Below the pieces are notes generated by a model. It had not been told where the DNA came from and did not search any database. It saw nothing but the letters and a program-made list of their open reading frames with translations. The position numbers were made by a program, and so were the translations under genes. 64,000 nt of DNA, from the NCBI GenBank assembly GCA_947469485.1, contig CANIPU010000001.1:1-64000 (forward strand), read 5' to 3'. Below, piece by piece: positions 51,950 to 58,339 of the stretch (positions are counted from its first letter, which is position 1; every line of letters begins with the position of its first letter). Source of the DNA: Chitinophagaceae bacterium. Lineage in GTDB: Bacteria; Bacteroidota; Bacteroidia; Chitinophagales; UBA10324.

Positions 51950-52084
51950 ATGAAAATATGGAACACCAACAAAGACGGAATCAAGCAAATTGCTCAAAGA
52001 ATTATACTTAGCCAAGGTATTTATTACGCACAATTAAGCTGCGCTACTTTTAATTCTTCACTTAAAATCATTATTACACCATGA
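51950..52084 (+). CDS. Possible leader peptide (44 residues)
   Basis: MKIWNTNKDGIKQIAQRIIL opens a 44-residue frame whose stop overlaps the start codon of the next gene as ATGA. A perfect -7 box TATATTTG lies at 51934-51941, nine bases before its ATG. No homology is recognised. The ATGA overlap could be chance; it is listed because a parallel small frame precedes the paralogue at 56.5 kb. Confidence 0.25.
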   Translation: MKIWNTNKDGIKQIAQRIILSQGIYYAQLSCATFNSSLKIIITP

Positions 52085-53391
52085 AAAAGATAATCTTGTT
52101 AATTTTCATGACTGTATTTTATTGTATTCAATTGGAAGCTCAAACCTTTGATTGGCGTCCTTTACCAGAAGGTATAAAAGGAACTCCATTAGGTTCTACA
52201 AGAGTTGAAAGCATGGTAGCACTACAGGATACAAATCTGATGTATGTAGTTGGGAACTTTGATACCGCAGGTTCATTACCCTGTAGCGGTTTTGCAATTT
52301 GGAATGGACTAAATTTTTCAGTACTTAATGGAGGTCCTTGGATAACAATGTCATCATATCTTAATCATATTGCAGCAGCAGGGGGCACACCTCCGAAGTT
52401 GATTTACTTAGTAGATAATCAATCTTTCACTCTCATTGGCCAGGCAAATTCCGATATTCATTGTTTAATAGAATACAAAGGCGACTTATATGCAGGTGGT
52501 GACTTTACTGATATGGATGGAGTACAATGTAATAACATAGCCCGTTGGGATGGCACAAGCTGGCATCCATGCGGTACAGGATTAACCGGACCTGGTGGTG
52601 CACAGGTTTTTTCACTTGGAGTTTATAATAATAAACTATATGTGGGGGGGGCTTTTGAATTTGCAGGTGGTATAACATCATATAATTTAGCTATGTGGGA
52701 TTCAACAAATTGGCAAGGGATAGGAATTGGTACTTCCCAATCAGGAGATTTAGTTAATGCTCCGGTCAAAGAAATGGGTACTTTTAGCAATAAATTATTT
52801 ATAAGTGGAAATTTTAATGAAGTGAATGGATTGTATACCTCGCAACTTGCTTATACTGATGGTATGGGTTGGTTTCCAACTAATTTTCCATCAGGGAGCG
52901 TAACTTGCATAAAGGAGTTTAATTCTAAAATTTATGTTAGTGCATTTGCTTATAATGTTTATAATTCAACCGATGGTGTTAATTATTCAGATGTTGGTTT
53001 ATTATTCAATTCTGGCCCTCGAAGTTTAGAAGTATTTAATGATACACTTTATGTTGGAGGTCAATTTACAATGTGTGGTGATACTCCATGTTACAGAATT
53101 GCAAGGCTGGTGCAAGTACCTAACGATACAACAACCATAAATGAAATGGAGATTTCAGATTTAAGAGTTGAGATTTACCCAAACCCTGCAAACGAAACTT
53201 TAACTCTAACAGCAGAGAATATAAAGGAGATAGTTGTTTCAAATTTGTTGGGAGAGGTAGTTCAAAGTTTAAAGTTTAAAGTTCAAAGTTCTTCGGCTAC
53301 TATAGATATAAGCAAACTACCGCAAGGCATTTACCTGTTGCGTTTTCAAACCAATAATGGTTGGCGAGTTGGGAAGGTGGTGAAGGAGTAA
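52081..53391 (+). CDS. T9SS type A sorted repeat protein, in-frame paralogue
   Basis: A 436-residue exported protein with signal peptide MKKIILLIFMTVFYCIQLEAQ. Residues about 22-350 contain repeated strands such as YKGDLYAGGDFTDMDGV, YNNKLYVGGAFEFAGG and FSNKLFISGNFNEVNG, each followed by an xxxxWDGTxW segment, consistent with a beta-propeller. The sorting domain starts at about 363 (VEIYPNPANE) and ends GIYLLRFQTNNGWRVGKVVKE. Four heptamer units (53260-53287) lie inside the sorting-domain code and keep it in frame. A close paralogue at 56.5 kb has lost this frame. Ligand unknown. Confidence 0.88.
   Translation: MKKIILLIFMTVFYCIQLEAQTFDWRPLPEGIKGTPLGSTRVESMVALQDTNLMYVVGNFDTAGSLPCSGFAIWNGLNFSVLNGGPWITMSSYLNHIAAAGGTPPKLIYLVDNQSFTLIGQANSDIHCLIEYKGDLYAGGDFTDMDGVQCNNIARWDGTSWHPCGTGLTGPGGAQVFSLGVYNNKLYVGGAFEFAGGITSYNLAMWDSTNWQGIGIGTSQSGDLVNAPVKEMGTFSNKLFISGNFNEVNGLYTSQLAYTDGMGWFPTNFPSGSVTCIKEFNSKIYVSAFAYNVYNSTDGVNYSDVGLLFNSGPRSLEVFNDTLYVGGQFTMCGDTPCYRIARLVQVPNDTTTINEMEISDLRVEIYPNPANETLTLTAENIKEIVVSNLLGEVVQSLKFKVQSSSATIDISKLPQGIYLLRFQTNNGWRVGKVVKE
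53260..53287 (+). repeat. Four-unit heptamer tract in sorting-domain code
   Basis: GTTCAAA, GTTTAAA, GTTTAAA, GTTCAAA in tandem. The two middle units carry a C-to-T change that lowers slippage. The reading frame continues correctly into the T9SS domain. Confidence 0.9.
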
Positions 53392-53396
53392 ATTCA

Positions 53397-53424
53397 ATTG
53401 ATAATTGATAATTAATAATGGATA
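53397..53424. repeat. Heptamer repeat after the T9SS gene
   Basis: ATTGATA twice, then ATTAATA and ATGGATA: four degenerate 7-bp units just downstream of the stop codon. Confidence 0.6.
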
Positions 53425-53461
53425 ATGAAATCGTGCATGTGTAGATGGAGCGGTTTATTTC

Positions 53462-53596: not shown

Positions 53597-53932
53597 TTAT
53601 TTCAGTAAATAATCACTCAATGTTTTTAATAATCCTTTCAGTGCAGTACTGCTTATTTCGCCAATGCTTCCTGCAATGGCTTCGGCAGGTATCACAGCTA
53701 AAAATCCTAACCGGATAACTCCCGGCATTTTTAATCCTGATTTTTTATAATCTGCATGAGTGGTTTCAATCAATAAATCAAAGTGCGGAATGTATTGATG
53801 CATTTGTGAACTGATTCCACACACCAACCAATCATTATGACCCGGCAATTGCTTTAATAATAAAACCGGTCGCAATTTTAATTTGCCATCAGACTGCGGC
53901 AGTGCCGATAAAATAATATTTCCCTGTTTCAC
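53597..53932 (-). CDS. PemK/MazF-type toxin
   Basis: A 111-residue protein: KQGNIILSALPQSDGKLKLRPVLLL is the beta-barrel opening of PemK/MazF endoribonucleases (the usual RPVLV motif is here RPVLLL), and SGLKMPGVIRLGFLAVIPAEAI matches the conserved middle part. MazF-like toxins cleave mRNA and are blocked by a co-transcribed antitoxin. The start overlaps the stop of the small upstream gene by four bases (ATGA), the classic toxin-antitoxin arrangement with the antitoxin first. Confidence 0.85.
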   Translation of the reverse strand: MKQGNIILSALPQSDGKLKLRPVLLLKQLPGHNDWLVCGISSQMHQYIPHFDLLIETTHADYKKSGLKMPGVIRLGFLAVIPAEAIAGSIGEISSTALKGLLKTLSDYLLK

Positions 53933-54168: not shown

Positions 54169-54288
54169 GGTTTACAAAAATATAAAATTGAAATGTGTTT
54201 TTATTCCCTCATCTTCCCACCAAACCTAAACAATAACAAATAACTAAAAATGAATACTGAAGAATATATTTTGTCGCACAAGTATCCA

Positions 54289-54337
54289 CTGTTCACTATT
54301 AACTATTAACTATTCACTATTAACTATTAACTATTCA
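54289..54337. repeat. Seven-unit heptamer array
   Basis: CTGTTCA followed by six units of CTATTAA or CTATTCA, exactly 49 bp. The array lies directly downstream of the stop of the 122-residue HTH-like gene. Similar heptamer arrays (STRR) are known from cyanobacteria. Confidence 0.88.
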
Positions 54338-56507: not shown

Positions 56508-58259
56508 ATGATGAAGAAAATAATTTTCATTTTTAGTTTTTCATTTTTAGTTATTCATTCTGTTGCTCAGAATTACGAATGGCAACCAATAAATCCAGGG
56601 ATTGATTGTGACGATTCTGCTTACCTGAGTTGCAGAATAAGAAACTTTACAGTTGATACTTTTCAAAATATTCTATGGGTAACAGGAATATTTGACGGAG
56701 CCGCTGGAATATTAAGCCCAAACTGTCTTGGATTTGATGGAACTAACTGGATTGCTTTTCCGGGAGTAATGGATTCACTAAGGGCTGCTCGGATTAACAA
56801 CACATTAGTTTATAATGGTGATTTAATCATTTGCAGAGATAATTTAGTTCAGAAATTCAGTTTCAACACCAATCAATGGACAACCATCGGCACAGCCTCT
56901 AACGGAGTTTCTTGCCTTGGAATTTATAACGGCGATTTAATTGCGGCTGGTGGATTTGGTGATATTGACGGAGTACCTGCCAATAGAATAGCACGATGGG
57001 ATGGAACCCAATGGTACCCCCTAAATAACGGAATAACCGGAAGTTCACATGTTATTAATGATGTAGAAATTTATAACGGAAGATTATTCGCAGGTGGGGC
57101 ATTTGACTATGCTGATAGTAATGATGCATGGAATATAGCAGTATGGAATGGGGTGAGTTGGAATAACTTGTGTTCAAGTGGAGGAAGTTTTGGAACGGAT
57201 GGGTTAACAGGGAATCACAGCGGAGCCGAAATATTGGATATGGAGGTATTCGATAATAAATTATACATCACCGGGCAGTTTGAAAAGGTGTGCAACATTA
57301 TTTGTTACCTTGCTTACTGGGATGATACTACCTGGCATGGAACGAGTTATCCATATGGAGATGGTAGAAAATTGGTCCCTTGCAATGAAAGATTATATAT
57401 TAAGCATGCCGGAGGAGCTTGGGTAAACTCATTTAATGGTAATCAGACCATTTCACTTGTGGATTCAACCTTTAATACAGACAGTAATTTAAAAATTGAG
57501 AATTTTCAGAGTGTATTATATTCCGGCGGTGTTTTTAGTTTTTCAGCCAATACAGCAACATTCAGAATTGCAAGATTAATGATATTTAATCCTGTATATC
57601 TAAATGTGGGTATATGCACAGGCGACAATTACGACTTTAACGGAGTGTTGCTGGATTCAGCAGGAGTTTATACCGATACCTTAACAGATGCATCAGGGTT
57701 AGATTCAATTGTGGTGCTTACACTTAATGTGAATGAGCACAATTCTGGTGCTTTAGCGCAGACTATTTGTGAAGGAGAGAGTTATAATTTTAATGGCATA
57801 CCACTCACTATTGCAGGAACCTATATTGATACTATAAATAATGTAGCAGGGTGCGATTCTGCAATTACTCTCACACTCAGTGTAACACTGCTTAATGCCG
57901 GCATAAGTCTAAGCAACGATACCCTAACAGCAAGCGGCAATGGAACCATACAATGGTATAACTGCATTAATCACCAACCAATAAGCGGTGCCACCAACAC
58001 CACTTACATAGCAAGCATAGCAGGAAATTATGCCGCAATCATTACAAATGGAAGTTGCAGTGATACAACGGTGTGTGTTACCTATATAGGAGTAAATGAT
58101 TTACCAATTGCAGATTCAGAATTGCTGATTTATCCAAACCCCGCAAATGAAACTGTGACTATTACAGCAGAGAATTTAACAGAGATAGCTGTTACAAATT
58201 TGTTAGGAGAGGTAGTTCAAAGTTCAAAGTTCAAAGCAATACGGCTACTATTGATATAA
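56508..58259 (+). CDS. T9SS-type repeat protein with frame-shifted sorting domain (phase-off)
   Basis: A 583-residue exported protein; signal MMKKIIFIFSFSFLVIHSVA. Residues about 20-360 contain strands such as YNGDLIAAGGFGDIDGV and YNGRLFAGGAFDYADS, like the paralogue at 52.1 kb. Residues about 368-460 hold two repeats with GxxYxFNGxxLxxAGxYxDT, common in Bacteroidota surface proteins. The sorting domain starts at about 538 (LIYPNPANETVTIT) but after three GTTCAAA units (58215-58235) the frame shifts and ends AIRLLLI. The correct end is encoded in another frame up to 58339. An assembly error is possible; a seven-base loss fits slippage better. Confidence 0.88.
   Translation: MMKKIIFIFSFSFLVIHSVAQNYEWQPINPGIDCDDSAYLSCRIRNFTVDTFQNILWVTGIFDGAAGILSPNCLGFDGTNWIAFPGVMDSLRAARINNTLVYNGDLIICRDNLVQKFSFNTNQWTTIGTASNGVSCLGIYNGDLIAAGGFGDIDGVPANRIARWDGTQWYPLNNGITGSSHVINDVEIYNGRLFAGGAFDYADSNDAWNIAVWNGVSWNNLCSSGGSFGTDGLTGNHSGAEILDMEVFDNKLYITGQFEKVCNIICYLAYWDDTTWHGTSYPYGDGRKLVPCNERLYIKHAGGAWVNSFNGNQTISLVDSTFNTDSNLKIENFQSVLYSGGVFSFSANTATFRIARLMIFNPVYLNVGICTGDNYDFNGVLLDSAGVYTDTLTDASGLDSIVVLTLNVNEHNSGALAQTICEGESYNFNGIPLTIAGTYIDTINNVAGCDSAITLTLSVTLLNAGISLSNDTLTASGNGTIQWYNCINHQPISGATNTTYIASIAGNYAAIITNGSCSDTTVCVTYIGVNDLPIADSELLIYPNPANETVTITAENLTEIAVTNLLGEVVQSSKFKAIRLLLI
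58215..58235 (+). repeat. Three-unit GTTCAAA heptamer tract
   Basis: Three perfect tandem GTTCAAA units inside the sorting-domain code. One more unit (seven bases) would restore the frame shared with the paralogue at 52.1 kb, whose tract has four units. Confidence 0.93.
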
Positions 58260-58339
58260 GTAAACTACCGCAAGGCATTTACCTGTTGCGTGTGCAAACC
58301 AATAATGGTTGGCAAGTTGGCAAGGTATTGAAAGAATAA
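58236..58339 (+). pseudogene. Out-of-frame remainder of the T9SS sorting domain
   Basis: In the frame offset from the upstream gene this encodes TATIDISKLPQGIYLLRVQT and ends NNGWQVGKVLKE before a TAA at 58337-58339. It matches the end of the paralogue at 52.1 kb almost residue for residue, showing that the domain was intact until a frame change at the heptamer tract. Confidence 0.88.

Follow-up and report, generated by a model that had tools for sequence, protein, structure and literature searches.

In the lacI frameshift hotspot, three tandem copies of a 4-bp repeat are enough for frequent gains and losses of one unit. Phase variation by simple sequence repeats, with switching of the C-terminus, is described for Helicobacter canadensis (PMC2823697). 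Bacterial tandem heptamers are presented in sections of two further papers as an abundant class of repeats, mostly intergenic, for which polymerase slippage is hypothesised (PMC4679880, PMC4692102); these include TAACTGA, found in Beggiatoaceae, Cyanobacteria and a few Bacteroidetes (PMC4679880), and GGGAATC, found in Xanthomonas (PMC4692102). Concerning the C-terminal export signal of the T9SS, excerpts of PMC11285876 report that P. gingivalis RgpB lacking its two C-terminal residues is retained in the periplasm, that PPAD tolerates the loss of two C-terminal residues and not of four, and that the signal of HBP35 is located in the last 22 residues. The passages of T9SS papers dealing with phase variation or tandem repeats (PMC10434189, PMC3796261, PMC8400371) do not describe repeats acting on the sorting domain (CTD). 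More generally, no description of simple sequence repeats or phase variation acting on the T9SS CTD was found among the open-access papers listed in the searches, subscription journals being mostly outside their range; within this scope the statement of the preliminary description, that no phase variation on this domain has been described, stands.

The window (the whole stretch of 64,000 nucleotides that was analysed) contains a cargo gene whose sorting domain is broken at a heptamer array. Its features are the following:

56508..58259, + strand: T9SS cargo gene in the out-of-frame state (583 aa, ending at an early stop)
58131..58235, + strand: first half of the type A sorting domain including the array (model positions 1-39), in the gene's own frame (own-genome CTD HMM)
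58215..58235, + strand: heptamer array of three perfect GTTCAAA units (sequence, TRF)
58257..58259, + strand: early stop met in the three-unit state (sequence, ORF)
58236..58339, + strand: remainder of the sorting domain with its TAA (58337-58339), intact, in the -1 frame (sequence, CTD HMM)

The preliminary description had placed three GTTCAAA units inside the sorting-domain code of a gene at 56.5 kb, an early stop after them and the true end of the domain, intact, in another frame; these coordinates bear out all of it. The 583-aa product consists, in order, of a signal-peptide-like start (judged by eye), an N part that resembles a beta-propeller and matches DUF5122 weakly (19.6 bits, under its cut-off), a repeat region common to other cargo proteins and the first half of the CTD. 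The signal-peptide code itself carries a 14-nt tandem repeat of 2.6 copies (56524..56559, + strand), whose unit is not a multiple of three; a change in unit number there would likewise shift the frame of the gene. A match to the type A sorting domain is present, but it is divided over two frames (1-39 and 37-75 of an HMM for which 39 CTDs from the own-genome sample were used). The in-frame part covers positions 1-38 of the 72 of TIGR04183 with 19.5 bits, where the cut-off of 23 is not reached, and positions 1-38 of the 75 of PF18962 with 28.2 bits, where the cut-off of 27 is reached; the -1 frame covers model positions 37-75 with 35.3 bits (nt 58220-58336). No single open frame of the gene reaches the C-terminal motif: after the three units its own frame continues for eight codons, the last being the stop, and the remainder lies in the -1 frame.

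The GTTCAAA repeat in the window is not a chance occurrence. TRF reports it at 58214-58236 (period 7, 3.3 copies, 100%), and the two-unit 14-mer, with at most one mismatch, occurs four times in the window vs 0.18 expected, a number attained in none of 100 shuffles. The locus shows one of the properties of phase-variable simple sequence repeats, namely a tandem repeat within the reading frame whose unit length is not a multiple of three. Calculated from the sequences of the target and its paralogue, the product is in frame when the unit count equals 1 modulo 3. The earlier proposal that gain or loss of seven bases would toggle the sorting signal is therefore half right: from three units the gain of one restores the frame and the loss of one does not, while the loss of two would likewise give an in-frame count.

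In-frame relatives, which the preliminary description had suggested looking for, are present both in the own genome and in a sister genome. The one in the window had already been noted there, at 52.1 kb, as having four units at the same point, in frame, and it does so with a full CTD:

52081..53391, + strand: paralogous cargo gene with a full in-frame CTD (ORF, TIGR04183, PF18962)
53260..53291, + strand: four-unit array followed by GTTC, in frame and at the corresponding position of the CTD (TRF, sequence)

The units of this paralogue are GTTCAAA GTTTAAA GTTTAAA GTTCAAA, then GTTC. The closest copy of the target's CTD, on contig C38, reads GTTCAAA GTTTAAA GTATAAA GTTCAAA and continues with the target's exact 3' flank GCAATACGGCTACT. 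The same four units as in C38 are found in frame in two related genes of the sister genome G002 (C361 and C411). G002:C361 is the best match of the target in that genome (72% identity over residues 2-358, the runner-up having 42%) and is probably its orthologue, judged from a one-way search. Worn versions, counted as four heptamers by eye and all in open frames, are seen in the own-genome CTDs C2, C3, C6, C17, C24 and C30. Since four units, in frame, are present in C38, in the paralogue at 53 kb and in the probable G002 orthologue, the target stands exactly one unit below the inherited four-unit state. In-frame and out-of-frame unit numbers are both seen between paralogues and between species, with one genome per species. 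The two-unit pattern GTTYAAAGTTYAAA is found at 12 loci of this genome, seven of them in CTDs; the seven are mutually related and therefore do not represent seven independent events. The CTD halves of the target are 76% and 92% identical to those of C38, while the N parts of the target and its paralogues are just 33-35% identical. This suggests shuffling of CTDs between cargo genes, or their homogenisation by gene conversion.

Some neighbouring elements can be recorded alongside these genes. An AATTGAT heptamer array (53396..53426, + strand) lies directly past the stop codon of the paralogue, outside coding DNA, and an ACTATTA/ACTATTC array (54288..54337) lies outside called genes. A PemK/MazF-like toxin gene (53597-53932, minus strand; PF02452, 36.2 bits) is located between the two cargo paralogues. 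Elsewhere in the own genome, a coding region without a visible CTD contains an in-frame four-unit GTTYAAA array (G000:C42:9561-9588, L017).

Concerning the export system, the organism has the T9SS, judged from the presence of SprA (TIGR04189, 2583 bits). The predicted fold of the C38 CTD (pLDDT 89.6) places the array residues, approximately 29-38 in our own mapping, within a strand spanning residues 28-44; strands 51-59 and 62-70 lie behind it. The array is thus positioned in the strand that follows the conserved NxxG motif or loop, with the last two strands of the domain behind it. Among PDB structures, the model is most similar to the mirolase CTD (E 3e-4), and the fifth match is the T9SS-bound RemA-CTD (E 3e-3). 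Since these last strands are lost from the target product, and given the results on CTD mutants of P. gingivalis, export of the target should stop and its expression should not. The earlier statement that surface export or anchoring, and not expression, would be affected can be kept on this analogy as regards export, as loss of the CTD end would abolish export and leave expression in place; loss of the export signal as the effect of the three-unit state is well supported in the same way.

The best-supported reading, which we consider probable, is a recent slippage event that removed the export signal and is reversible in principle. The gene would encode a surface or secreted T9SS cargo with a heptamer array just past the NxxG motif, inherited with four units and in frame. 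Replication slippage in the sequenced lineage would have left three units, so that translation exits the domain midway and stops at the eighth codon past the array. The protein would still be made, lacking the last beta-strands that the T9SS recognises, and by comparison with P. gingivalis it would be kept in the periplasm or degraded and not exported. The change would be a recent one, which further slippage could in principle undo. Slippage as the cause of the frame break is well supported by comparison with the four-unit relatives. The three units of the target are all perfect and the middle units of its relatives are degenerate; given the perfect units, one deletion alone is insufficient and a substitution or a second slippage would therefore also be needed.

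The main rival is that slippage made the mutation and the gene is now being lost, with a fixed frameshift, which we hold to be a serious possibility though short of an even chance. The family is large and redundant, with at least 150 T9SS CTDs over the cut-off in the 3.08 Mb of the own genome (G000), and CTDs broken by other means are found elsewhere in the genus. Two cargo CTDs are interrupted by an in-frame TAA and have no heptamer array (L274 in G001:C29, L273 in G005:C8). Orphan CTD tails with the VQS..KF motif, which follow an unrelated reading frame and are arranged alike in two species, also have no array (L266 in G000:C3:221 kb, L272 in G001:C68). As these broken CTDs of the genus have no array, genes also lose their CTDs in the course of ordinary decay. 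Against a dying gene, the 583 codons of the target ahead of 58259 contain no stop, and the part of the domain past the array has kept its conservation at the protein level. In the 31 codons behind the array, the target differs from C38 in 10, nine of them synonymously. The codon changes private to the target are few (five), and four are synonymous; the nonsynonymous fraction expected without selection is approximately 0.74-0.77 (for the private changes, binomial with 0.75, p = 0.016). Neither the comparison with C38 nor the private changes reveal decay of the out-of-frame half. Because the changes are mostly synonymous, vs about three quarters nonsynonymous expected, this half appears from its codons to have been read as protein until recently, or to be read in other cells. 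Gene conversion between CTDs could be another reason why it looks fresh.

A second CTD of the genus is broken at a heptamer array. In the sister genome G001, an AATTGAT array (C1:2402-2425; L268:1202-1225) lies directly behind the YPNP motif of a SprB-repeat cargo protein with at least 406 open residues and puts the gene out of frame; what remains of the CTD is intact in a different frame (PF18962 22-75, 36.1 bits). In G005, three homologues of the window's gene have 56-60% identity, and the best of them (60%) carries an AATTGAT array at the CTD spot of the G001 case with one unit fewer, in frame. The G001 case is independent of the target and is the second heptamer-broken CTD in the genus. 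The two cases concern two species, two different heptamers and two places in the domain, the target having one unit too few and the G001 gene one too many. In total, 13 arrays in the genus that lie in a CTD or at most 60 nt before one were examined, 11 in frame and two out of frame, which is not a rate, as the loci are mixed and were picked by homology, by heptamer pattern or by a short-looking CTD. Four further arrays of the genus are located after the stop codon.

A less probable reading is that the arrays are an evolved phase switch: CTD arrays would be contingency loci, maintained because export of each surface protein is toggled by slippage while expression stays constant. The distribution of the arrays is in its favour. 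In five sister genomes, CTDs with their preceding 60 nt (14.7 kb) contain seven period-7 arrays, vs none in the remaining coding DNA (115.6 kb) and two outside genes (16.1 kb; binomial 2e-7). This count took 43 loci of 50, with seven overlapping ones skipped and own-genome loci excluded; the loci were chosen by protein similarity to the target or to the C38 CTD and not by arrays, and one of them (L066) supplies two of the seven. A recount over all 50 loci with repeated bases masked gives seven for CTDs (14.8 kb), none for the remaining coding DNA (118.8 kb) and two outside genes (16.5 kb). The units in the sister CTDs are several unrelated heptamers (AATTGAT, AATTGAC, AATTCAC, AATTCAA-type, TTCAATC-type and AGATTAC). 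In the own-genome sample, period-7 arrays number two in CTDs with their preceding 60 nt (19.6 kb) vs three in the remaining coding DNA (1065 kb), and seven outside genes (83 kb; binomial 0.003). This enrichment is weak alone because its two CTD arrays are related copies. In the same sample, periods 4-6, 8-13 and 15-17 yield zero to two arrays per class, and period 14, a multiple of seven, yields seven outside genes, two in other coding DNA and none in CTDs. Coding heptamer arrays concentrate in the CTDs and the preceding 60 nt in this genus. A phase switch is further favoured by the two independent out-of-frame cases and by the lack of decay in the off half of the target.

Other observations speak against a phase switch. 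The tracts are short (three units at the target) and mostly imperfect, and most CTD arrays are in frame (11 of the 13 in the genus, together with four single-frame cases in other families). A segment of the CTD is length-variable in the alignment, and tolerance of insertions in the linker and the variable CTD loops would yield an equal enrichment. Also, arrays are absent from 29 CTD loci of further genera in the order, be it from the CTDs (8.8 kb), the remaining coding DNA (72.4 kb) or the sequence outside genes (6.5 kb); this null result says little on CTDs in particular because the non-CTD DNA there is array-free as well. The broader proposal, that unrelated heptamer arrays have repeatedly settled in or before the CTDs of the genus as contingency loci, with cargo made constantly and stochastically exported or retained, is doubtful.

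CTD arrays are not confined to this genus, because genomes of other families (G453 and G448) have them, so that at least two other families contain in-frame ones. Of the places listed with AATTGAC/T-type arrays in 149 genomes of the class, 40 were checked on both strands. Five of these lie in a CTD or at most 60 nt before one (three in G453 and one each in G448 and on C10 of the own genome), two lie after a CTD and 33 have no CTD near. In G453, the arrays are of the AATTGAY type and lie inside CTDs that each match in a single frame (L260 and L261 in G453:C7, L262 in G453:C28); in G448, an array of this type lies just before a CTD that also matches in a single frame (L250, G448:C75). From these in-frame arrays in two other families, the habit of placing arrays in CTDs may reach beyond the genus. 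Three GTTYAAA units anywhere are found in 4 of 16 genomes of the family and in 23 of 395 genomes of the phylum, the own genome counted. A scan of 84,980 species genomes for the G-x-x-V code followed by three GTTYAAA units, which covered this exact form and may have lacked the genome of the window and those closest to it, gave 21 stretches, none with a CTD match of at least 10 bits within 150 nt of an array. The YPNP code followed by two AATKGAY units within 30 nt occurs in 1 of 395 genomes of the class, for one codon choice and one orientation, in a sample that had the own genome and no other of its genus. As a separate observation, four contigs of the cyanobacterial MAG Hydrococcus sp. Prado102 carry GTTCAAA arrays followed by AAGTAAAGG-type sequence (L118, L120, L121, L130).

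An error of assembly or consensus in the number of units is improbable. Repeats are prone to such errors; the whole array, however, is only about 22 bp, and any usual sequencing read is longer than that. Completeness of the assembly is rated at 100% and contamination at 0.38%. In the own-genome sample of 1.168 Mb (38% of the genome), which contains 68 near-full-length CTDs, strong half-CTDs in different frames form one pair, that of the target, with weaker partial matches also listed. Programmed -1 ribosomal frameshifting that joins the two halves is the least credible explanation and highly improbable: the required shift is indeed -1 and the downstream half is conserved, but no canonical X XXY YYZ site is seen by eye in the zero frame at about 58200-58260, and the four-unit relatives need no recoding.

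Returning to slippage with loss of the export signal, its meaning depends on the behaviour of the arrays in living populations. If they vary there, this would be phase variation in Bacteroidota acting on export, and not on promoters or start codons, and a cell could alter its surface one cargo at a time. Even without variation, this is a genus with coding slippage hot spots concentrated in one secretion signal.

In comparison with known systems, the sorting domain of the target resembles the T9SS type A domain (TIGR04183 / PF18962) in domain, fold and position, and differs from it in that the target's copy is divided over two frames by the array. Like the lacI hotspot, the locus has a unit whose length is not a multiple of three, present in three copies; it differs in the length of the unit and in the organism. 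The units here are other ones than the TAACTGA and GGGAATC heptamers, and those in coding DNA are gathered in T9SS sorting domains. A parallel in effect is Helicobacter canadensis: as there, the repeat alters the frame and hence the C-terminus of the product, and not only initiation or transcription. The tracts there are homopolymeric, whereas those here are heptamers, the altered C-terminus is a T9SS export signal, and the switching is a proposal.
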